Shown: positions 13,884 to 40,921 of the stretch, in pieces | Layout: each line of letters opens with the position of its first letter | Position numbering within the stretch: the first letter of the stretch is position 1 | Source of the DNA: a virus | Direction: 5' to 3' (one strand) | Virus record (IMG/VR): IMGVR_UViG_3300047331_000043 | Coordinates: 1 to 40,921 of that record | Length of the DNA: 40,921 bases | The notes under the pieces: model-generated | What the model was told of the DNA's origin: nothing | The model's database searches: none | What the model saw: the letters and a program-made list of their open reading frames with translations, nothing else | Made by a program: the position numbers and the translations under genes

Positions 13884-15824
13884 TCAGACGATCATCAGCG
13901 CGGCGTTCGCGCCGGCGCCCGATCGGTAGAGCGATCCGGCCGGCAGCCCGGTCGGCGAGATCGGCAGGTTTGCCATCTGCGCGCCGAAGCCAAAGACCGC
14001 CCAGCCGCCCGTTGGCCCGCCCTGGTCGGCGAGCCGGAGCAGCACGGTGTCGGACCCATTGGCCGTCTGCACAAACTCGGTGCTGATGTCGAACGGGTTA
14101 TAGCGGATGTAGTTGTCAGTCGCCGTCGACTTGTTAAGATACAGGCGCCCGGCGCCGCCCTGCGGCGGGATGTACAGCCCCGAATTGAACGTGCAGCTGC
14201 CATTGAAGGCCAGCCAGCCGTTCAGCGTATCGACGCCGATCTGGTAATTGGCGGCGGTGTCGAAGTTTATGTACTGCCCGTCCTTGAGCCACACGGCGGC
14301 AGTGTTCGGCGTGACGGTCACGGTGGAAGTGGTCGCGTCGGTGATCGCCGTCGCCAGCCCTGGCGCGGCGAGCGTGATCGTCCCGCCCGGCAGGCCCGGG
14401 CCGTCCTCGGCATAGCCAATCACGCTGACCGTCTGCCGGGAGCCGTTGGCGTCCTGAACGATGGCGCGCAGCGCGTTCGTCGGCGATGGCGGAGCATAGG
14501 TGTGCGCGCCGTCGCCGAAAAAGTTGGCGTAGACAAAGCAGGTGATGTCCGAGACGTGCAGCGACGTCGCACCGGCGGCCGCGTTCGCCAGCAGGTTAGC
14601 CTGCGGCACGAAGCTCCCGCGCAGGTCGACGCCCGCGCAAGCGTACTGGTTCGTGAGCATGAAACTGCCAACACGGACGGATGGGCCAAGATTGAAATAA
14701 AGGCCGTAGGCGAAGGTGGTCGGCCAGCTGCCGCCGAACACGATCGCCGCGCCCGCCGCCAGTGCGGCCGTCGTCGGCGCGGAGAGCGTGACCAGGCCGG
14801 TCGCGTTGTTGGCCGACAGAACGACGGTCCCGGCGGGGATCCCGGTGGCGCTGACAACCTGGCCGAAGCCGGCTTGCGGGATGCCGTTGGCCGCGAATTG
14901 CAGCGTGTTCCCTGGGGCGCCCTGTGCGGTGGTGGTGCTGTAGGTCCACTGCCCCAGGCCGTATTTCTGGCTGCCGTTGATCTGGCCGCCGAGATAGCGT
15001 GAATTCGCGGTGTCGATGCCGCTGGCGAAGAAGTCGAACTCGAACTGGACGGTCGGACCCTCGTACGGGTTCGTCGCCGTGTTGTTGAGCAGGCCGGTCG
15101 CCATGTACTGCGCCCAGCTCTGCGCGCCCACATTGGTGGCCCCGTAGGCGAATATCCCGTCGTTCGGAAAAATCACATTCTGGGGGGCAAGGTAGATCGA
15201 CATCAAGCCGCCCGGCCCCTTGTTCACCTGGGACGACTGGGTTGTGTACTCGGACAGCACCCCGTTTCCGGTCACCGCCCCGTTACCCCGGTAGGAACCG
15301 AGGTTGAGGTTGGACGTCGTCACGCCGCCCACGCTGTTCAACGAACCGCTCAGGTTCAGCGTCGCGGTGATGACCTGATAATTCAGGATCCCGTCATTGG
15401 ACCCGCTGACATAGAGCGTCGGCTTGAAGATACCGAAGGCATCCGGGTTCGCCACGCCCTGCGCTACGGCTGTCGTCGTGATCGTTTGCGCCAGCGTGCT
15501 TTGCAAGGTCACCGGCGCGCCGGGTGCCACACCCAGCGCCGCCTGCGCGCACAGCGCGTCGACATACTGCTTGCAGACCGCTTCGAGGCTCGACACGGGA
15601 TTGCCGGCGCCCAGCAGAAGACGTCCGCTCATGGTGTCGCCGGCGCGCTGCACACGGCCGCCAATGGCGGACGTCAACGGCGTGGAGATGCCTGTGTCGG
15701 ACGGCGTCACCAGCGCCAGCGATGCGTCAATGTTGGTCAGGTTCGGGCCCTGGCCCGGCACACTGTACGGATACGGCGGCACGGGGCCGCAGCCGCCGCC
15801 CTCATAGCCCCACCAATCGGACAT
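13884..15824 (-). CDS. Tail fibre / receptor-binding protein
   Basis: This 646-residue protein starts at ATG (15824), overlapping the tail tubular A stop (TGATG). It begins with a Gly/Pro/Tyr-rich head (MSDWWGYEGGGCGPVPPYPY). Near residues 61-91 it carries AGDTMSGRLLL...VCKQYVDAL, the repeat type found in many phage tail fibres (AGDTMTG...KQYVD). The remainder is beta-rich, low in Lys and rich in Ser, Thr, Asn and Gly, as expected for a trimeric fibre shaft and tip. It sits between the two tail tube genes, so it is probably the receptor-binding fibre. No intramolecular chaperone or depolymerase motif was recognised, and no variable-repeat cassette is seen nearby. Confidence 0.72.
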   Translation of the reverse strand: MSDWWGYEGGGCGPVPPYPYSVPGQGPNLTNIDASLALVTPSDTGISTPLTSAIGGRVQRAGDTMSGRLLLGAGNPVSSLEAVCKQYVDALCAQAALGVAPGAPVTLQSTLAQTITTTAVAQGVANPDAFGIFKPTLYVSGSNDGILNYQVITATLNLSGSLNSVGGVTTSNLNLGSYRGNGAVTGNGVLSEYTTQSSQVNKGPGGLMSIYLAPQNVIFPNDGIFAYGATNVGAQSWAQYMATGLLNNTATNPYEGPTVQFEFDFFASGIDTANSRYLGGQINGSQKYGLGQWTYSTTTAQGAPGNTLQFAANGIPQAGFGQVVSATGIPAGTVVLSANNATGLVTLSAPTTAALAAGAAIVFGGSWPTTFAYGLYFNLGPSVRVGSFMLTNQYACAGVDLRGSFVPQANLLANAAAGATSLHVSDITCFVYANFFGDGAHTYAPPSPTNALRAIVQDANGSRQTVSVIGYAEDGPGLPGGTITLAAPGLATAITDATTSTVTVTPNTAAVWLKDGQYINFDTAANYQIGVDTLNGWLAFNGSCTFNSGLYIPPQGGAGRLYLNKSTATDNYIRYNPFDISTEFVQTANGSDTVLLRLADQGGPTGGWAVFGFGAQMANLPISPTGLPAGSLYRSGAGANAALMIV

Positions 15825-16438
15825 CAGCCGCGCTCCCTGATCCAGGCGGGTTCGTATCGGGTGCCGACCGCGATGCGCCGGCGCGTGCCGTCGCGCTGCT
15901 TGGCGTTCTCCAGCTGGTTCATCGCGACGGACATCAGCGCCGGCCCGATCTGCGCTGAGCCGGTGATGTCCAGCGCGGACTGACTCGCCAGCGCGTACAC
16001 CAGCGCGTCGGAAAACAGCGGCGACGTCTGCGAGGGATCGGTCAGGGCGTACGTGTAGACGCCCACCGGCGAGGCGCGGTTCGTGCCGATTATCTCGCCG
16101 GTCACGCCGTTGAAGGCGACTTCAAAGTTGATGACCGGCTGAGTGCCCCAGACCGTGCCGTTCCAGATGCCCAGGAACGCCAGCGCGTTCGCCGGCATGC
16201 TGTACACGCCTGCCCAACCCGGCAGAATGTCACCGGTCGGCGCTGGCACCAGGGGCGTGAAGACACGCGCGAAAGACCAGTCGTAGGTCTCCAACAGAAA
16301 GTTGAACGCGCTGGTGAAGTTGTCGTTGAGGACGTTGGCTTCGGGGCTGACGTCGGTCACGCTCACCAGCTGCGCCCGCGCGCCGAGCGCGTCCAATGCG
16401 CGATTGTAGACTTGCAGCTGCGTCAGGCCGAACGGCAT
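15824..16438 (-). CDS. Tail tubular protein A (gatekeeper), T7 gp11-like
   Basis: This 204-residue protein starts at ATG (16438). A strong GGAGG site lies 8 bases upstream, so the start five codons earlier is less likely. The opening LTQLQVYNRALDALGARA, the segment EANVLNDNFTSAFNFLLETYDWSFARVF, and the C-terminal LVYALASQSALDITGS...MNQLENAKQRDG are typical of podovirus tail tubular A proteins, which form the ring joining portal and nozzle. It is preceded by one of three related hairpin-plus-ribosome-site leaders in this operon and is followed with a 1-base overlap by the tail fibre gene. Confidence 0.85.
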   Translation of the reverse strand: MPFGLTQLQVYNRALDALGARAQLVSVTDVSPEANVLNDNFTSAFNFLLETYDWSFARVFTPLVPAPTGDILPGWAGVYSMPANALAFLGIWNGTVWGTQPVINFEVAFNGVTGEIIGTNRASPVGVYTYALTDPSQTSPLFSDALVYALASQSALDITGSAQIGPALMSVAMNQLENAKQRDGTRRRIAVGTRYEPAWIRERG

Positions 16439-16447
16439 CGCGGTAGC

Positions 16448-16486
16448 CTCCATCGAAGGGAAGGCGCCGACGCTTCACAGCGCGGG
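16448..16486 (-). promoter_or_regulatory. Repeated leader module, copy 1 (tail tubular A): GTGA hairpin plus GATGGAG
   Basis: On the minus strand, CCCGCGCTGTGAAGCG (16471-16486) folds into a CGCT/AGCG stem closing a GTGA (GNRA-type) loop. It is followed by GATGGAG (16448-16454), 9 bases before the ATG. Related modules with nearly the same spacing precede the capsid (18542) and portal (21771) genes. The distance from hairpin to start codon is 32 bases here. Confidence 0.7.
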
Positions 16487-16515
16487 CGCGGTCGGCACGC
16501 ACAGCACGGGCGGCA

Positions 16516-16538
16516 CGGTGCTGGCACCGCAAGCGGTG
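16516..16538 (-). other. Mutually exclusive small hairpins
   Basis: GCACCG at 16524-16529 can pair with CGGTGC at 16516-16521 or, with its neighbours, with GCGGTG at 16533-16538. The two stems (about 6 bp, 2-base loops as drawn) exclude each other. They lie in the 138-base gap between the 117-residue gene and tail tubular A. They could be an attenuator or chance in GC-rich DNA. Confidence 0.3.
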
Positions 16539-16576
16539 ACGGTTGCCCCGGCCGCCCGTCTGTCAGCGCCGCAGAG

Positions 16577-16930
16577 TCAGCGGCGGCCTTTCGGCTCGGT
16601 CACCACACCGGCCCGCGTCGTCGCCGCCGCCGTCCGCAGCTCGGCGAGCTCGCGCCGCGCCAGCGCGAGCTCCTGTTCCACGGTCAGCGGGACGTCCGCC
16701 GGGTCCGGCTCGATCGGCGTGCCGTCCAGCAGCTCCATGGTATCGGGGTTCAGGACGAACGGCCGCCCGTCTGGATGCCGCTCGGGGATCTCGACTTCCT
16801 CGCCCGGCTCGTAGACGCGGCCATGCACGCCAGGGATTTTCACCTGTTGCTTGGCGCTGTTCAGCTTGAACTCGACCGGCTGCGGGCCGATCGCCAGGAA
16901 GGTGTCGGCGGTGATGCGGATGCGCAGCAC
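16577..16930 (-). CDS. Small phage protein of the head-tail region, function unknown
   Basis: This 117-residue protein is read from GTG at 16930, four bases after the cement protein stop; a GGGGGTG stretch upstream may serve as ribosome site. The first part is beta-like and basic (VLRIRITADTFLAIGPQPVEF, FKLNSAKQQVKIPG). The middle is acidic with EEVEIPERHPDGRPFVLN. The end is a charged helix (PLTVEQELALARRELAEL) and a basic tail. I recognise no family. Position between cement protein and tail tubular A suggests a head completion or minor capsid role, which is inference only. The in-frame sequence upstream of the GTG overlaps the cement gene and looks non-coding. Confidence 0.6.
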   Translation of the reverse strand: MLRIRITADTFLAIGPQPVEFKLNSAKQQVKIPGVHGRVYEPGEEVEIPERHPDGRPFVLNPDTMELLDGTPIEPDPADVPLTVEQELALARRELAELRTAAATTRAGVVTEPKGRR

Positions 16931-16934
16931 TGGC

Positions 16935-17387
16935 TTACACCCCCACCACGTTGATACCGGACGGGTAGTACTCGTCGGCCTGGGCATCGACCACCAGGCC
17001 GGACGAAATCGCGCCGGCCGTCAGCGTAGTGTTCTGCACGATATACTGCGCCTGCAGGTATCGCTCGCCGGCGTAGGGCTCGAAATTCAGGTTGCCGACA
17101 AAGATCGGCGCGCTGGCGACCAGCGCCGTGACCGCCACCGTGGTGCTGTTCAGCACGGTCGGGGTTGCGTTGAACAGCGGGCTGGTATCGGCCACCACTT
17201 CCAGCACAACGCTGCCGCCGGCGACGCTCTGCGAGAACGACGTCGTCACGTCGAAGTAGATTTTGACCGCGCGGCCGGCGCCGATGTCGCGCGGGGCCGA
17301 CAGGTCGATGGTGTTGGTGCTGGCGGTGGTGCCCGTCGCGGCGATCGTCTGCGCGTTGGAGAAGGTGTTGAAAGCGTCGGTGATCAT
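16935..17387 (-). CDS. Capsid cement protein, Bbp16-like
   Basis: This 150-residue protein starts at ATG (17387) after a strong AGGAGGG site. The opening DAFNTFSNAQTIAATGTTAS, then STNTIDLSAPRDIGAGRAVKI, and GERYLQAQYIV near residue 110 fit the Bbp16-type cement proteins of BPP-1-like podoviruses. These are jelly-roll proteins that decorate and stabilise the capsid. The gene directly follows the major capsid gene, as in BPP-1. High expression would be expected, and the leader between the two genes contains a strong hairpin and one copy of the CGCTGCGGAGCAGCG-type repeat. Assignment rests on sequence pattern and synteny. Confidence 0.8.
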   Translation of the reverse strand: MITDAFNTFSNAQTIAATGTTASTNTIDLSAPRDIGAGRAVKIYFDVTTSFSQSVAGGSVVLEVVADTSPLFNATPTVLNSTTVAVTALVASAPIFVGNLNFEPYAGERYLQAQYIVQNTTLTAGAISSGLVVDAQADEYYPSGINVVGV

Positions 17388-17424
17388 TGCAAGGCCCTCC
17401 TAGGCCGATTTGCGGCGTGTGCGT

Positions 17425-17439
17425 CGCTGCTCCGTAGCG
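17425..17439 (-). repeat. Dispersed hairpin repeat (B type), copy in cement-protein leader
   Basis: CGCTACGGAGCAGCG on the minus strand is a one-mismatch copy of the element that forms the tandem array at 19415-19539. Its outer CGCT/AGCG pairs are kept and the loop still contains GGA. It lies 37 bases upstream of the cement protein start. Confidence 0.65.
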
Positions 17440-17463
17440 TGGCGTTTCAGATGTTGGGCGGAT

Positions 17464-17487
17464 GGCCCGGGGATTGCGCCCCGGGCC
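17464..17487 (-). terminator. Strong hairpin after the capsid gene
   Basis: A perfect 9-bp stem (GGCCCGGGG / CCCCGGGCC) with a 6-base loop begins 8 bases beyond the capsid stop on the minus strand. No U run follows, so it may be a partial terminator, an RNA-stability element protecting the capsid message, or a processing site. Confidence 0.5.
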
Positions 17488-17495
17488 GGTCGGCG

Positions 17496-18542
17496 TCAGG
17501 TCACGCGGCCTTCGCTGCCCAGCAACTGATCGCAGATGCGGATCGGAATGCCCTGGAACGTGTCGTAACGCTTGCCCATCACGTCCTCCACGCTGCGCAG
17601 CAGGTTCGGGCGGTTCGCGGCCTGGATGTCGATCGCCGAGGCCACGGCACGGTTGACGTAGAACGCCGGGCGACCCATGCCCATGTTCGGGATCTTGCGC
17701 ATCGCGCGCTGCATCAGCGTGATGAGATCGGCCTTGCCGGACAGGTTCGGCTGGTTGTTCGAGCCGAGCGTTCCGGTCACCGGCAGCCCCGTCACGTCGA
17801 TATTCGCGATGCGAACGCAGAACCGCCAGTCGCGCACGGTGAGGCCCATCTTCCACAGGAAATGGGTGCGATACGCCTCGTAGCGGCCGCCGACGCCGCC
17901 GCCGACGCCGTCGTAGATCGTCTGCAGGCCCTTGTCTTCCATCGTCAGGCCGGCGCCGGTTTTCGCGCCCTTCGGGAAGAAGCCGGCGAGGCTGTTGTCG
18001 CCCCACACCGCCAGCCAGATCGACGTATTCGTGCTCCCGAGCCCGCCGGCGTCGAGCACATTGGTCGCGGTCGGCGTCACCGCGGTCTGCACGGTGTTGT
18101 AGCGCGGCGCCAGGCCGGTGAACGTCTGCGGCGAGATGCGCTGATTGCCGTAGAACAGCGTCCCGGCCATCTGCTGATTGAGGCCCTCCAAGAACGCCTT
18201 GTCTTCCGAAAGACGAAATTCCTCGTCATTGCCGTTCAGCTCGCACAGCGCCTGGTCGATTTCCGAATAGGTCTCCAGCATCGCCGCGGCGTCTTCGATC
18301 TGCGCGCTGGTGGATTTGGTCGGCAGCACGCCGCTGTTGATCGACCGGAAAGTGCCGGTCGGCAGCGAGGTGCGCAGCGTGGTGCGGTGCCCGGTCGGCA
18401 GGTTGCCCTCGATGAACAGCATGTCATCGAGGATGTCATTCTGCTGCGACAGGATTTCGACCACGTTCGCAATCTTGGAGTCGGGGTCGACGCGCTTCAT
18501 CCAGTCCACGAGAGTCAGCGCGGTAGAGCTTACGTATGCCAT
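17496..18542 (-). CDS. Major capsid protein (BPP-1-like podovirus type)
   Basis: This 348-residue protein starts at ATG (18542), with GATGGAG 8 bases upstream. The opening (STALTLVDWMKRVDPDSKIA, EILSQQNDILDDMLFIEGN, LPTGHRTTLRTSLPTGTFR) and later FRLSEDKAFLEGLNQQMAGT, LFYGNQRISPQTFTGLAPRY are characteristic of major capsid proteins of podoviruses with an HK97-type fold. Length agrees with that group. It follows the scaffold gene and precedes the cement gene. The leader contains the second copy of the GTGA-hairpin module, and the 3' side carries a strong hairpin, consistent with special control of the most abundant virion protein. Confidence 0.9.
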   Translation of the reverse strand: MAYVSSTALTLVDWMKRVDPDSKIANVVEILSQQNDILDDMLFIEGNLPTGHRTTLRTSLPTGTFRSINSGVLPTKSTSAQIEDAAAMLETYSEIDQALCELNGNDEEFRLSEDKAFLEGLNQQMAGTLFYGNQRISPQTFTGLAPRYNTVQTAVTPTATNVLDAGGLGSTNTSIWLAVWGDNSLAGFFPKGAKTGAGLTMEDKGLQTIYDGVGGGVGGRYEAYRTHFLWKMGLTVRDWRFCVRIANIDVTGLPVTGTLGSNNQPNLSGKADLITLMQRAMRKIPNMGMGRPAFYVNRAVASAIDIQAANRPNLLRSVEDVMGKRYDTFQGIPIRICDQLLGSEGRVT

Positions 18543-18550
18543 TGTTAAGG

Positions 18551-18590
18551 CTCCATCTAAGAGGGGAAGCCCGGCGCCTCACGGCGCGGG
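18551..18590 (-). promoter_or_regulatory. Repeated leader module, copy 2 (major capsid): GTGA hairpin plus GATGGAG
   Basis: CCCGCGCCGTGAGGCG (18575-18590, minus strand) folds as CGCC-GTGA-GGCG. GATGGAG at 18551-18557 is 8 bases from the ATG. Relative to copies 1 and 3 both sides of the stem changed together (U:A to C:G), which supports a real RNA stem. Hairpin to start distance is 32 bases, as in copy 1. Confidence 0.72.
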
Positions 18591-18626
18591 GTAGCGGCCT
18601 TGCCTAAGGGCCGTAGCGAGTGGCGA

Positions 18627-19385
18627 TCAGGTCTTGCCCGGGTTCATCGTCGGGTAGAGCCGTTTCGCGACAGAGACAGGCGGCGCCGCGGCTCCGTTGC
18701 CCTGGACGAATTCGCTCTCGCCGAGCGCCGCCCCGATGCGTGAGAACACACGGATAATCTCGGGATGATTGCCGAGCCCGTCGCGCAATGTCGCGCGCAG
18801 CGCCGGCGTCCCGAATCGGTCAAGTGCGCGCTGCGCATGCGCAACGGCCGCGTCCAGCTTGGGGCCGCCGCACTCGGCGTCCGCCTTGGTCGCCTCGGCC
18901 CAGCTTTGCGTCAGTGCCACCTGCGCCGCCTGCGCCGCCTCGGCGGCCGCGGCCTGGCGCGCGGCGTACAGGCCGACCAGCTGCTGCGCCTGCTCCTGCG
19001 ACAGCTTCAGGCCGGCCGCGGCTTCCTTGAACGACGCCAGCCCCTCGGCGTCGGCCGTCATGCCCTCGGGCAACTTGAATTCCTGGTAGACGATCGGCTC
19101 CGGCGCTGCTGCGGCTGCCGCAGCCGCCTCGGCCGCTGCGGTCGCCGCAGGATCGGCGGGCGCGTCCGCACCCAGCAGAGTCGCGGCAGCCGCGGGCGGC
19201 GTCCCTGGTGACGTCGCGGCCGGCGCGGCCGGCGGCGTTGCGACCGGCGCAACCGGGGCCGCGGGCGGCGCGACCGGGGCGGCAGGCGCCGCGACGGCTG
19301 GCGCAACAACGGGGGCGGCAGCGCCTGGTGCGGCGTCAGCGCCCGCGCTGCGAGCGGCGACGCCGGGTTGGGTCTCGATCGTCAT
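18627..19385 (-). CDS. Capsid assembly scaffolding protein
   Basis: This 252-residue protein starts at ATG (19385) after AGGAGACTGC. The first 90 residues are Ala/Pro/Val low complexity. The rest is the recognisable podovirus scaffold segment: YQEFKLPEGMTAD, FKEAAAGLKLSQEQAQQLV, a charged Ala-rich helix, then AVAHAQRALDRFGTPALR, GLGNHPEIIRVFSRIGAALG and a C-terminal AKRLYPTM. Scaffold proteins of this pattern occur just before the major capsid gene in BPP-1-like and T7-like phages. It would fill the procapsid and leave on maturation. The 150-base leader in front of it carries five tandem hairpin repeats, unlike any other gene here. Confidence 0.85.
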   Translation of the reverse strand: MTIETQPGVAARSAGADAAPGAAAPVVAPAVAAPAAPVAPPAAPVAPVATPPAAPAATSPGTPPAAAATLLGADAPADPAATAAAEAAAAAAAAPEPIVYQEFKLPEGMTADAEGLASFKEAAAGLKLSQEQAQQLVGLYAARQAAAAEAAQAAQVALTQSWAEATKADAECGGPKLDAAVAHAQRALDRFGTPALRATLRDGLGNHPEIIRVFSRIGAALGESEFVQGNGAAAPPVSVAKRLYPTMNPGKT

Positions 19386-19414
19386 GCAGTCTCCTGATTA
19401 TGAGGCTTTTGCGT

Positions 19415-19539
19415 GTCGCTGCTCCGCAGCGCGGGCGTGTCGCTGCTCCGCAGGGGGGGGCGTCGTCGCTGCTCCGCAGGGGGGGCGTCGTCGCTGCTCC
19501 GCAGGGCGGGCGTCGTCGCTGCTCCGCAGCGCGGGCGTC
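19415..19539 (-). repeat. Tandem array of five hairpin repeats upstream of the scaffold gene
   Basis: Five units about 24-26 bases apart start (plus-strand GTCGCT) at 19415, 19439, 19465, 19490 and 19515. Each on the minus strand contains CTGCGGAGCAG, a 4-bp stem with a GGA loop. Units 1 and 5 extend this to a 6-bp stem, CGCTGCGGAGCAGCG. The linkers are C-rich. The array starts over the stop of the Bbp19-like gene and ends 30 bases before the scaffold ATG. Single copies recur at 17425 and 21987. It does not encode a plausible protein in the late direction. Confidence 0.8.
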
Positions 19540-19924
19540 ATCGCGCCGGTCGATTGTTCAGCGCGGCCGCGTCTTCCGTCGCCTCGGCCTGCATCGCGGC
19601 GAACGCCTTGGGTTCCACCCGCATCACGTCCGCCAGCAGCCCCAGGCCGATGTTCCGCTCGCCCTCACGAAACGACGTCATGTGCGCGTCGCCGGCGACC
19701 ATGCTTGTGTGCATGACGTGGCAGCGCGTCAGCAGCGTCCAGATCAGCGAGCGGCCGGCGCGATGTTCCAGCAGCGCTCCCAGTGCGGCGTCGCGGTCGC
19801 GCCGCGCCTGGCCGACGCGCTTGCGCCGCGTCTCCACGCCATGCTGCTCGCCGGCGTTGAATTGTGGGGATGCGGCGCCTTCATCGTCGCCGACATTGTC
19901 GGCGGTTGCGGTCGCCTCGTTCAT
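19538..19924 (-). CDS. Bbp19-like small phage protein
   Basis: This 128-residue protein starts at ATG (19924) with an ATGA overlap with the portal stop. After a polar N-terminus of about 45 residues comes LLEHRAGRSLIWTLLTRCHVMH, then a short polar stretch and FREGERNIGLGLLADVMRVEP, followed by AFAAMQAEA. This arrangement (GRxxLWxLL, TSF.EGxRNxGLxLLAD) is that of the small Bbp19-type proteins encoded after the portal in BPP-1-like phages. Their role is not established; location suggests head assembly. The last codons overlap the hairpin array. Confidence 0.75.
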   Translation of the reverse strand: MNEATATADNVGDDEGAASPQFNAGEQHGVETRRKRVGQARRDRDAALGALLEHRAGRSLIWTLLTRCHVMHTSMVAGDAHMTSFREGERNIGLGLLADVMRVEPKAFAAMQAEATEDAAALNNRPAR

Positions 19925-21771
19925 CGGCCAGGCCCCGGACCAGACGCGGGCGCTCCGCCGCTGCCGCCCAAGCCGCTGCCGCCGAGCATCGCGGACAGCG
20001 CGTTCTGCCCACCGCCGACATCCGTCTGCGACAGCGTCTGGGCGCCTTGCACCGCCGCCATTGCGTTCTGCGCCGCCTGCTGCGCCTGCTTCTGCTGGGC
20101 GCGCGCCTGCACCTGTTCCATGGCGTCGTCGTCGTCCACCAGTACGCCGGTCGGCACCATCAGAGCGTCCGCCATCGCGTCCAGTGCCTTCTCCGGCGAG
20201 ATCTTCGCGCTGACGATCGGCTCCCAGGTCGGATTAGAAGCCAGCCGGCCGGCGAAGGCGACCAGCTGCTCAATCGACGTCGTCGCGGTCGCGCGCTGCG
20301 CAGCCGCCAGCGGCGAGACGCATTGCACTTCCAGACCTCGCCCCTGCAGCGCGCGGGGCGGCCGCGGAATCAGCTTCCAGCGCGTCAGGATCGCGATCAC
20401 CCGCGCTATCAGCGGGTTGATCAGCTCGGTCTGGTTCCGCTCGACCACCGGGCCAAGCATCAAGAGTTTCTCGCCCTGCCGCGCGCGGATTTCCTCGGCT
20501 GTGACCGGCTGCGCGCCCTCCATCTGCGAAATCATCAGGAACAGATCGGCGAAAAACGCCTCCTTGATCAGCCGCTCCTTGTCGCGGATGAGCGGCTGCA
20601 GCATCTCAGGCCGGAATTTGACCTGATACAGCTCGCCGATCTTGCCGTATGCCTCCGGCCCCAGGAAGTTTATCCCCCCCGGGAGCGCGCTGATGGGCTC
20701 ATGCTCCATCGACAGCGGCGCCACCAGCGGCGGGTTCACCAGCTTGCCCACACCCTCCGCCATTGCGCGTTCGAGCGATTGCAAGGTGCGGACGTCCGCG
20801 AGCGCGTCCATGCCCGGCGATCGTCCGTACACGTCATTGCCGAATGATTTCCAGCGCGGCGCCACGAACGGCTGCTCGTGGTATCCGCCTTGACCCAGCA
20901 GACGGTCGCTGTCCCCGCCGAGCTCCAAATACACGCAGCGATACGGCCAGCCCTTCGCGAAGCCACGCGACCACCCGGCGGGCGCCGGCGGCAGCGCATT
21001 GTGCGTATGCCGTGGGTTCGGCTCGATGACGTGCAAGATCTCGCGCTCGGCCGTCAGCTGATTGCTGCGGTAGAGGTCCTGGACGGCCTTGCTGCAATTA
21101 TCGAAGCCGAATTGTTCGACCATCTGGCCGACATTCAGCACGAAATCGCGATACAGCGTGGTCGGCTCCATCCGGCTGCTGTTCGCCAGCAGGAACTGCC
21201 CAGGTTCCATGCTGTAGCAGCGTATCCCGTTGAAGCGCCCGCGCGCGTCAAGGTCTTCATCGACCAGCATCACGCCTTGGCCGAACACGCCTTGATCGCC
21301 GTAGAGCGTATGCAGCGCGGAATACACGTTGCTGCTGGCCATAACCGACAAGACGCGGGACGTGACCAGGTCCAGCCACGCGCGGACTTCCGTCTGCTGG
21401 TTCAGCGCCTCGTCTTCGACCGCCAGTACGAACCACCTGTGCGCCGGCGACGTCAGCCCGGTCAGCATGCCCGACGCGAGCGTGTTCGCCGCCTGCGTGG
21501 CCGTGCTGTTGATGATCTTGTGACCCGCCTTCCGGCCGCGGGCGCCGCTGTTCGGGAGGGTCAGCATCCGGCCGCGGCGCGGCGCGATGTGCGCGGCCAG
21601 GTCCAGCCAGTGCAGGCGCCAGCTTTCGCGTTCGGTGCGCAGCATCCCCCAGCGGTTCACGCACCAGTCGCGCAACTCCTGGTCGCTCTCGCCGCGCGGC
21701 TGCGCACTGTTGACGGCCGCACTCTTGGCGTTGCTGCCAGTCGACAGCGCCGTGAAATCATATTGCGGCAC
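19921..21771 (-). CDS. Portal protein (head-to-tail connector)
   Basis: This 616-residue protein starts at GTG (21771), with GATGGAG 8 bases upstream. Features of podovirus connector proteins are clear: ERESWRLHWLDLAAHIAPRR near residue 50, INSTATQAANTLASGMLTGL near 88-107, then SPAHRWFVL, and a long helical second half with QPLIRDKERLIKEAFF and MEGAQPVTAEEIRARQGEKL. The tail (from about residue 545) is Gln/Ala/Gly-rich. Twelve copies should form the ring through which DNA is packaged by the TerL motor and later leaves. A GTGA-hairpin leader precedes it and a Bbp19-like gene overlaps its end. Confidence 0.9.
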   Translation of the reverse strand: MPQYDFTALSTGSNAKSAAVNSAQPRGESDQELRDWCVNRWGMLRTERESWRLHWLDLAAHIAPRRGRMLTLPNSGARGRKAGHKIINSTATQAANTLASGMLTGLTSPAHRWFVLAVEDEALNQQTEVRAWLDLVTSRVLSVMASSNVYSALHTLYGDQGVFGQGVMLVDEDLDARGRFNGIRCYSMEPGQFLLANSSRMEPTTLYRDFVLNVGQMVEQFGFDNCSKAVQDLYRSNQLTAEREILHVIEPNPRHTHNALPPAPAGWSRGFAKGWPYRCVYLELGGDSDRLLGQGGYHEQPFVAPRWKSFGNDVYGRSPGMDALADVRTLQSLERAMAEGVGKLVNPPLVAPLSMEHEPISALPGGINFLGPEAYGKIGELYQVKFRPEMLQPLIRDKERLIKEAFFADLFLMISQMEGAQPVTAEEIRARQGEKLLMLGPVVERNQTELINPLIARVIAILTRWKLIPRPPRALQGRGLEVQCVSPLAAAQRATATTSIEQLVAFAGRLASNPTWEPIVSAKISPEKALDAMADALMVPTGVLVDDDDAMEQVQARAQQKQAQQAAQNAMAAVQGAQTLSQTDVGGGQNALSAMLGGSGLGGSGGAPASGPGPGR

Positions 21772-21779
21772 TCTGGCAG

Positions 21780-21816
21780 CTCCATCGGTCGGGAGTCCGG
21801 CGCTTCACAGCGCGGG
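21780..21816 (-). promoter_or_regulatory. Repeated leader module, copy 3 (portal): GTGA hairpin plus GATGGAG
   Basis: CCCGCGCTGTGAAGCG (21801-21816, minus strand) is identical over 16 bases to copy 1. GATGGAG (21780-21786) lies 8 bases from the GTG start, and the hairpin is 29 bases from it. This supports GTG at 21771 as the portal start. Confidence 0.72.
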
Positions 21817-21986: not shown

Positions 21987-22001
21987 CGCTGCTCCGCAGC
22001 G
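21987..22001 (-). repeat. Dispersed hairpin repeat (B type), copy after the 62-residue gene
   Basis: CGCTGCGGAGCAGCG on the minus strand, a full 6-bp stem with GGA loop, is identical to units 1 and 5 of the tandem array at 19415-19539. It begins 8 bases beyond the stop of the 62-residue gene. Confidence 0.7.
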
Positions 22002-27841: not shown

Positions 27842-28207
27842 ATGGCCGATGTCACAGCTCCAACCGAAGCGCAGATCGCGCTGGCGTCCTATGACCGGAT
27901 GCTGGAAGAGACACGCAAGTTCTCCGCCGAACAGGCCAAACTCGCGAGCGAGCAAACCAAGCTGCAGGCCGAAGCGCGCAAATACGACCGCGAGCTTGAC
28001 CGGATGCTGGAAGAGACACGCAAGTTCTCGGCCGAGCAATACAAACTCGCGAGCGAGCAAACCAAGCTGCAGGCCGAAGCGCGAAAATATGATCGTGAGC
28101 GTTGGCCCACCTACGTCGCCGCTATCGGCGGAGTGATCGCCGCTATCGGCGGCTCGATCGCCGCTGCCGCTGGCATCTCCACGTTGCTCAAGACCCACGG
28201 GTTGTGA
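27842..28207 (+). CDS. Duplicated coiled-coil protein with C-terminal membrane segment
   Basis: This 121-residue protein starts at ATG (27842). Residues 18-52 and 53-87 are near-identical 35-residue units (DRMLEETRKFSAEQ...LASEQTKLQAEARKYDRE), predicted as a long charged coiled coil. Residues about 91-112 are a Gly/Ala/Ile hydrophobic segment that fits a tail anchor, followed by STLLKTHGL. A shorter single-unit relative lies at 29759-30016 on the opposite strand. The gene has its own promoter and is followed 7 bases later by an HTH gene. Function is unknown; a membrane-bound role such as superinfection exclusion is possible. Confidence 0.7.
   Translation: MADVTAPTEAQIALASYDRMLEETRKFSAEQAKLASEQTKLQAEARKYDRELDRMLEETRKFSAEQYKLASEQTKLQAEARKYDRERWPTYVAAIGGVIAAIGGSIAAAAGISTLLKTHGL
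27893..28102 (+). repeat. Two direct 105-bp repeats inside the coiled-coil gene
   Basis: Units 27893-27997 and 27998-28102 are in frame, 35 codons each. They differ at a few positions, several of them silent (for example AAATACGACCGC against AAATATGATCGT), so the duplication is not brand new and both copies have been under protein-level selection. Confidence 0.85.
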
Positions 28208-39734: not shown

Positions 39735-40028
39735 ATGATCGAGGTCATGGAACCAGCCAATTTCCGCGTGGCCGATCTGGCCGCCAGGTGGCGATGCTCG
39801 GCCGGGCATGTCCGTGGACTCATCCGATCCGGCGCCCTACCGTCCCTCCGGCTCGGCAAGCTCATCCGCGTGCCAGCCGCCTCCGTGCACGCATTCGAGG
39901 CAAGATGTCAGACCCAGCCCGACCCCGCCTCGTCCGAGTCGCCGGGCGCACAACCTGGTACATCTATCACCAGCGCCGTCGCCTCTCTACGGGCTGCGAA
40001 GATCGCGCGGGCGCGGAACTCGTCCTAG
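39735..40028 (+). CDS. Excisionase-like HTH protein
   Basis: This protein has 97 residues from ATG at 39735 (an ATG at 39747 is an alternative). FRVADLAARWRCSAGHVRGL (about residues 10-29), LIRSGALPSLRLGKLIRVPA and SVHAFEARC form an AlpA/Xis-type winged HTH (helix-turn-helix 17 pattern: sv-elA---g-s---Vy-lI--G-L-a-r-G---RI). The last 40 residues are Ser/Ala/Pro-rich and overlap the start of the integrase gene in another frame. Directly in front of int it is probably the recombination directionality factor. Confidence 0.75.
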   Translation: MIEVMEPANFRVADLAARWRCSAGHVRGLIRSGALPSLRLGKLIRVPAASVHAFEARCQTQPDPASSESPGAQPGTSITSAVASLRAAKIARARNSS

Positions 40029-40921
40029 CCCGCTATCGCGCCGAGCTCGACAGGCCGCAGCTCGCAGTCATCTCCATCACCTCTATCCTTGACCGCTATC
40101 TCGCCAATCGACAGAGCGAACGCCGTCCCGGCGCGGAGCGGCTGCGCTGGGCGCACAAGCCGCTGCACTCGTTCTTCGGGGAAAAGCCGCCGGAGCTCAT
40201 CTCGGCTGCCGATGTCCGGGTCTACATCCGGCGCCGCGAGGCGGACGGTGTCAAAAGCGGCACGGTGCGTACGGAGCTACAGGCACTGCAGGGCGCGCTG
40301 CGATGGGCGCACGGCGAAAAGCTGATCGGGCCGCCGCCCCCGCTGCCGCTGCCGCCGAAACCCCCGCCGCGGGAGCGTTGGCTGACGCGCGAGGAAGCGG
40401 CCCGGCTGGTCGATGCATGCGCGCGGCCGCACATCAAGCTGTTCGTCCAGCTGGCCCTGCAGACCGCCGGACGCGCCTCGGCCCTGCTCGGGCTGACCTG
40501 GGATCGGGTCGATTTGGAGCAGGGGCGGATCAACCTGCGGGATCCGACCGTCGCACGCAGCAAGAAAGGCCGCGCGGTCATTCCGATCACCGACGCGCTG
40601 CGTCCGGCGCTGGTCGAGGCCTATGAGGGCCGCACGACGGAATGGGTGGTGGAATGGGCCGGCGGGCGGGTCGGTTCGGTCAAGCGCGCCTTCCGCGAGG
40701 CATGCGCGCGTGCGGACCTGACAGGCGTCACGCCGCACACGCTGCGGCATACCGCGGCGACCTGGATGGCCCAGGCCGGCGTGCCAATGTCACAGATCGC
40801 CGGCTACCTGGGTCATTCCAGCACGCAGATGGTCGAACAGGTCTATATCCACCACTCGCCGGACCACATGCGCGAGGCGGCCGCGGCGCTTTCGGGAAAC
40901 AGTGACCGGTTGGCCGGGTGA
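39905..40921 (+). CDS. int: Tyrosine integrase
   Basis: This 338-residue protein starts at ATG (39905) with GAGG 5 bases upstream; a longer in-frame extension is Arg/Pro-rich and lies in the excisionase reading region. Catalytic residues: Arg190 (TAGRASALLGL), Lys220/221, His278 and Arg281 (HTLRHTAATW), His304 (GYLGHSS) and Tyr314 (VYIHHSP). The N-terminal part (residues 1-52) is arm-binding-like and 55-140 the core-binding domain. It inserts the phage at its attachment site. The stop is the last codon of the window and the gene reads outward, so the attachment site is probably beyond the right edge. Confidence 0.92.
   Translation: MSDPARPRLVRVAGRTTWYIYHQRRRLSTGCEDRAGAELVLARYRAELDRPQLAVISITSILDRYLANRQSERRPGAERLRWAHKPLHSFFGEKPPELISAADVRVYIRRREADGVKSGTVRTELQALQGALRWAHGEKLIGPPPPLPLPPKPPPRERWLTREEAARLVDACARPHIKLFVQLALQTAGRASALLGLTWDRVDLEQGRINLRDPTVARSKKGRAVIPITDALRPALVEAYEGRTTEWVVEWAGGRVGSVKRAFREACARADLTGVTPHTLRHTAATWMAQAGVPMSQIAGYLGHSSTQMVEQVYIHHSPDHMREAAAALSGNSDRLAG

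Follow-up and report, generated by a model that had tools for sequence, protein, structure and literature searches.

A candidate structured RNA leader before high-copy virion genes in tailed phages

Three late genes in the window, by which we mean the whole stretch of 40,921 nucleotides analysed here, are each preceded by a short hairpin leader that recurs in many other tailed phages, most of them uncultured. We regard it as probable (about 0.6) that this is a cis-acting RNA leader of late operons, common to unrelated phages, which raises or coordinates the expression of the genes for the highest-copy virion proteins at the mRNA level. That the leader is a conserved structured RNA is well supported on comparative grounds.

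Results

The window is an IMG/VR virus record with a podovirus structural module of the BPP-1/BcepC6B type and an integrase. The integrase gene (phrog_1) occupies positions 39788-40921, reaching the end of the record, and its presence suggests that the phage is probably temperate.

A preliminary description of this DNA had reported three minus-strand leaders of the same layout, with a hairpin followed by GATGGAG and a start codon, and all three were found again in their places. The leader of the major capsid protein gene (phrog_212, 17496-18542, minus strand, as are all features of the leaders) contains a hairpin GCGCC-GUGA-GGCGC at 18574-18587, which we call hairpin 2. Its extended form (18570-18591) passes through a C.C mismatch and then pairs CCC with GGG. 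Between this hairpin and the start codon at 18542 lie the UCCC box and the Shine-Dalgarno sequence, AGATGGAG (18551-18572). On the other side there is another hairpin, hairpin 1, CGGCC-CUUAGGCAA-GGCCG (18595-18613), which the first reading of the capsid leader had missed while seeing hairpin 2 correctly. The portal or head-tail connector gene (phrog_332, PF12236; 19921-21771) begins with GTG at 21771 and is preceded by hairpin 2 of the form GCGCU-GUGA-AGCGC (21800-21813) and by the box and Shine-Dalgarno sequence CGATGGAG (21780-21798). In the leader of the tail tubular protein A-like gene (phrog_394, phrog_9239; 15824-16438), hairpin 2 is GCGCU-GUGA-AGCGU (16470-16483), extended at 16464-16489 by a C.C mismatch and then GCGCC/GGCGC, and CGATGGAG is present again at 16448-16464. 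This leader stands as described, but the start of its gene has to be moved: it is most likely 16438, because the ATG at 16453, which opens the longest reading frame, falls within GATGGAG.

The hairpin is thus real, with a stem of 5 bp that continues beyond the C.C mismatch in all three copies of the window. The change of U:A to C:G in the stem of the capsid copy is also real. The GATGGAG part of the leader was recognized correctly from the start; the conserved unit, however, extends through UCCC to the Shine-Dalgarno sequence. Hairpin 1 is clear in the capsid leader; before the portal and tail genes it is degenerate at best. All three occurrences of the core GCGCNGTGANGCG in the window fall at the leaders, a count reached by none of 100 dinucleotide shuffles of the window (mean 0.36). 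A scan of the window for the leader with two mismatches allowed did no better than chance.

The window has other repeats as well. A different hairpin, GCUGC-GGA-GCAGC, lies on the minus strand at 19411-19544, 17426-17438 and 21988-22000; it is repeated five times in tandem, with a 25-bp period, upstream of the protease gene and otherwise occurs singly in the late region. Its exact copies were found only in contigs of the same phage, and its GGA loop resembles sites of the CsrA/RsmA type. At 27892-28100 there are two tandem 105-bp copies with 91% identity, probably a duplicated coding stretch.

What does the leader look like in other phages? A loose hairpin pattern run over viral contigs recovered their leaders amid chance matches, and the conserved parts were found by successive scans: with this pattern, with the Shine-Dalgarno sequence added, without the stem and without the loop. 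With all loci pooled, at least 193 distinct leaders in at least 205 loci were collected; redundancy among contigs was removed by simple identity rules alone, and contigs L001-L003 and L088, being 100% identical to the window, add no information. In this unit a stem of 5 bp closes a G(N)GA(N) loop; 3-9 nt further on stands UCCCNNAGAWGGAG, which includes the Shine-Dalgarno sequence, and then the start codon. The spacing from GGA to the start is 3-15 nt, mostly 7-10, and most of the 193 leaders listed have 8-9 nt. Among the leaders listed, the loop is GUGA in 99, GUGAU in 44, GCGA in 12, GGAU in 8 and GAGA in 6, with rarer kinds besides, counts which are biased to GTGA and TCCCTTAGATGGA by collection with patterns. 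A single phage record has from one to six copies. Some of these stand in tandem, as in contigs L144 (approximately 170-265), L206 (approximately 2262-2360) and L353 (6207-6287, minus strand). The first unit is degenerate in L206, while in L144 it has a full Shine-Dalgarno-like box with no start codon right after it.

A second type of leader was noticed in one capsid group (L042, L044, L053 and relatives), where the hairpin GCGCA-GTGA-TGCGC lies directly before AGAAGGA, without a UCCC box. In the same group a leader with hairpins 1 and 2 also precedes the preceding gene.

In many leaders hairpin 1 lies 6-11 nt upstream of hairpin 2 and has a 4-5 bp stem with the loop CUURGGCAA. When it was collected without a pairing rule, at least 4 bp were formed in 52 of 59 cases (arm shuffles: mean 11, maximum 21), and hairpin 2 followed downstream in 43 of the 59, against 2 in shuffled spacers. 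The pattern joining hairpin 1 to the Shine-Dalgarno sequence, CTTGGGCAA...CCCTTAGATGGAG, matched 101 places in viral contigs and its reversed version one; a start codon follows all 35 non-redundant places of this kind. Two further contacts are possible on paper, namely a pseudoknot of the hairpin-1 loop (GGG) with CCC and a mini-hairpin UCC/GGA that would span the Shine-Dalgarno sequence; in both, the partners hardly vary.

The preliminary description had taken the paired change in the capsid stem as covariation and as a sign of RNA structure, and this view is borne out by strong covariation in many other phages. We built a covariance model, R1, of 62 copies from other phages and none from the window. 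In its alignment 98% of the cells are paired and four of the five pairs show two-sided changes, in rows that had been chosen for pairing. Other collections avoided this choice. A stem-free scan gave at least 4 contiguous pairs in 68 of 78 distinct hairpins, compared with 31 on average and at most 40 when the arms were shuffled 1000 times. In rows picked on no other basis than the loop of hairpin 1 and the downstream box, helices 1 and 2 were 98% paired with 95 two-sided changes; no shuffle of 500 reached this pairing or these changes, and they were lost when the partners were slid. With anchors that had not been used for fetching, a GNRA hairpin was present in 24 of 33 places with a start codon versus 2 of 29 without one.

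Applied unfiltered to the whole window, R1 ranked the three leaders first to third, with rough E-values of 2.1e-9 for the capsid (18551-18589), 2.5e-6 for the tail (16448-16485) and 3.1e-6 for the portal leader (21780-21815), the next match having E 0.08. The model R2, also built without window sequence, again placed them first to third, and its match to the capsid leader (18551-18615) has a similarly rough E-value of 8.4e-13. Over 450 kb of phages free of the element, the best match of R1 had E 0.43. The folding energy of the long leaders is not distinctive, with z-scores near 0; the isolated fold of the capsid hairpin (18570-18592) stands out with z -3.75. The case for an RNA element is comparative and does not come from the fold energy of the long leaders.

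Downstream of the leaders we scanned 118 non-redundant proteins. The capsids among them fall into eight Pfam families (Phage_capsid, P22_CoatProtein, SU10_MCP, GP7, Phage_capsid_3, Phage_cap_E, Major_capside and Phage_capsid_4), and the window's own capsid family, phrog_212, is also represented. The HK97 fold is probably common to many of these capsids, yet by sequence they are separate families. The other proteins include at least 23 scaffolding proteins, several families of tail-tube proteins, portals and two prohead proteases. The common denominator of these genes is the high copy number of their products in the virion. The earlier supposition that the three genes of the window need high or balanced expression agrees with this, as in other phages the motif nearly always precedes head, scaffold and tail-tube genes.

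It is instructive to follow the element across related phages. Carriers within the phrog_212 family are contigs L353, L151 and L285; in L353 the leader also precedes the portal gene, and the tandem copy lies before the capsid gene. In the fetched regions the element was absent from BPP-1 and BcepC6B, the protein relatives of the window, from the capsid relatives L004-L010, L012 and L015, from nine named phages of Rhizobium, Sinorhizobium, Roseibium, Acetobacter, Bradyrhizobium and Rhodoferax, and from Caulobacter phages SR18 and DMCA and Limnohabitans phage DC31; all 14 named phages scanned were without it. The same capsid family thus occurs with and without the element, which does not simply track capsid ancestry. 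The preliminary description had proposed a covariance model scanned against related podoviruses and held that absence from relatives would count against the leader. The outcome supports the leader: many other phages carry the motif, and a model made from their copies recovers the three leaders. It has one nuance, in that BPP-1 and BcepC6B have none.

Among 385 genomes of the class containing an Enhydrobacter assembly, probably the Alphaproteobacteria, where NCBI taxonomy places this genus, two have true copies. At least one of these copies lies in a prophage, together with capsid, portal and terminase genes. The capsids of carriers have relatives in Rhizobium phages, with up to 59% identity. 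These capsid relatives and the copies in genomes of the class suggest alphaproteobacterial hosts for many carriers, within a sampling of genomes that covered one phylum. R1 gave four matches in 289 genomes of the class, of which only L366 looks plausible, and a strict leader pattern had no match in 399 genomes of the phylum. Short blastn searches with the consensus against 50,697 phage records returned chance-like partial matches or none. One match in a microvirus (H21) was rejected as a leader, since it is internal to a capsid gene.

Comparison with Known Elements

A comparison with Rfam 15 gave no match at the leaders of the window (up to E 5) or at five loci of other carriers (up to E 1). 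No description of such a leader came up in the open literature consulted, which included few preprints. Several known systems share single features with it. In the leader of T7 gene 10, a 5′ hairpin and a Shine-Dalgarno sequence before the major capsid gene boost expression, but that leader is tied to a promoter of the phage RNA polymerase, whereas no conserved promoter was seen at the leaders described here. The mini-ykkC or guanidine-II riboswitch consists of two small hairpins with conserved ACGR loops shortly before the Shine-Dalgarno sequence of metabolic genes. The arrangement of two small conserved-loop hairpins is similar; the loops and the gene targets differ, and Rfam gives no match. 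Hairpin promoters of the N4 type need a gene for a virion RNA polymerase of approximately 3500 aa, and the longest open reading frame of the window has 1254 aa. CsrA/RsmA-type sites carry GGA in the hairpin loop; GGAY loops, which might act as such sites, occur in 13 of the 193 leaders listed, most loops being of GUGA type.

The nearest described element is SAS/ESAS of cluster K mycobacteriophages, a short conserved sequence at the translation starts of many genes, with an inverted repeat just upstream in about half of the cases and a suspected role in translation (PMC3203893). SAS is a 13-bp sequence, GGGATAGGAGCCC, adjoining the start codon, the repeats are 17-bp imperfect inverted ones with a variable spacer, and the element is confined to non-structural genes of one phage cluster (PMC3203893). 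The leaders considered here are likewise positioned at translation starts and repeated within a phage. They differ from SAS/ESAS in all three defining features: they carry UCCCNNAGAWGGAG in place of GGGATAGGAGCCC, have 5-bp stems with fixed loops of 4-5 nt, and stand before capsid, scaffold, tail-tube and portal genes in many unrelated phages.

Discussion

If the leader acts in cis on the mRNA, then we can ask: How might it raise or coordinate expression? The folded leader may keep the ribosome-binding site open, or a factor, either a host protein or the ribosome, may bind it and favour initiation or protect the mRNA, and both could apply. Such a factor would more likely be encoded by the host than by the phage. 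A blastp comparison, which may miss factors below its sensitivity, found no protein family that extended beyond 8 of the 21 carrier phages compared; the lack of a family common to all carriers points to a host factor or to the RNA itself. The UCCC box is conserved and its role is putative. As the first tandem unit of L144 has no start codon right after it, the downstream box may serve more than ribosome binding. Against an expression leader of this kind speaks the fact that cultured relatives with similar capsids manage without it.

The leaders lie within co-directional late operons, in short gaps, at a near-fixed distance to the start codon, and no conserved promoter or other sequence was found upstream of the hairpins across leaders, nor any sigma-70-like promoter in the leader region of the window. 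The position in such gaps and the lack of a conserved promoter would also suit RNA processing: cleavage of the late polycistronic mRNA close to the hairpins, by an RNase of the host or of the phage, would leave each high-copy gene on a stable segment of its own, protected by a hairpin at the 5′ end. Stabilisation of mRNA by short, stable 5′ hairpins is a known mechanism. We consider this unlikely, since the loop identity is kept beyond the needs of simple stability, and initiation is indicated by the UCCC box and by a nearly constant distance to the start codon. The small hairpins, fixed loops and covarying stems also resemble protein-binding sites, tandem copies exist, and the GGAY loops of some copies present GGA as CsrA-type sites do. 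An operator for a translational repressor or timing regulator could be imagined on this basis, with a phage or host RNA-binding protein restraining the synthesis of virion proteins like coat proteins at RNA-phage operators. However, the hairpin is upstream of the Shine-Dalgarno sequence and does not cover it, the loops are mostly GUGA without GGA, and the blastp comparison found no gene common to all carriers, which makes an operator quite improbable.

Repeats at several late genes and tandem copies would be expected of a DNA element too, either a late promoter or a dyad-symmetric binding site. Such an element is very improbable, for the letters of the stem vary without loss of pairing, the loop, of 4 or 5 nt, is not a palindrome, and the distance to start codons is near-fixed with no conserved sequence upstream. 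An antitermination site like that in lambda nut is scarcely credible. Lambda boxB has a 5-bp stem and a tetra- or pentaloop with a GNRA-type fold, and the present hairpins have the same stem with similar loops, GNRA or GNRA plus one (GUGA, GCGA, GAGA, GUGAU and others). Their copies, however, stand directly before start codons of many genes throughout the operon and not just at the head of the transcript. Inspection by eye revealed no boxA-like box, and no shared N-like gene was found, the blastp comparison giving no protein in all carriers, although small N-like proteins diverge fast.

Going beyond the expression leader itself, we tentatively suggest a portable RNA signal for the expression of high-copy virion proteins, which unrelated tailed phages (HK97-, P22-, SU10- and BPP-1-type and others) have either exchanged or retained by convergence. 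A factor encoded by the host, or directly the ribosome of a particular group of hosts, might read it, and it would then mark the ancestry of the host and not that of the phage.

If our reading is true, the leaders would constitute an undescribed family of structured leader RNAs of tailed phages, distinguished by where they lie, ahead of the genes for the most abundant virion proteins, and not by a gene family. The leader could serve as a marker of late, highly expressed genes in uncultured phages and may help to link phages to their hosts, and it would be a candidate leader for strong expression in the host group concerned. The question also arises of what in the cell could recognise one and the same RNA in phages with no genes in common.
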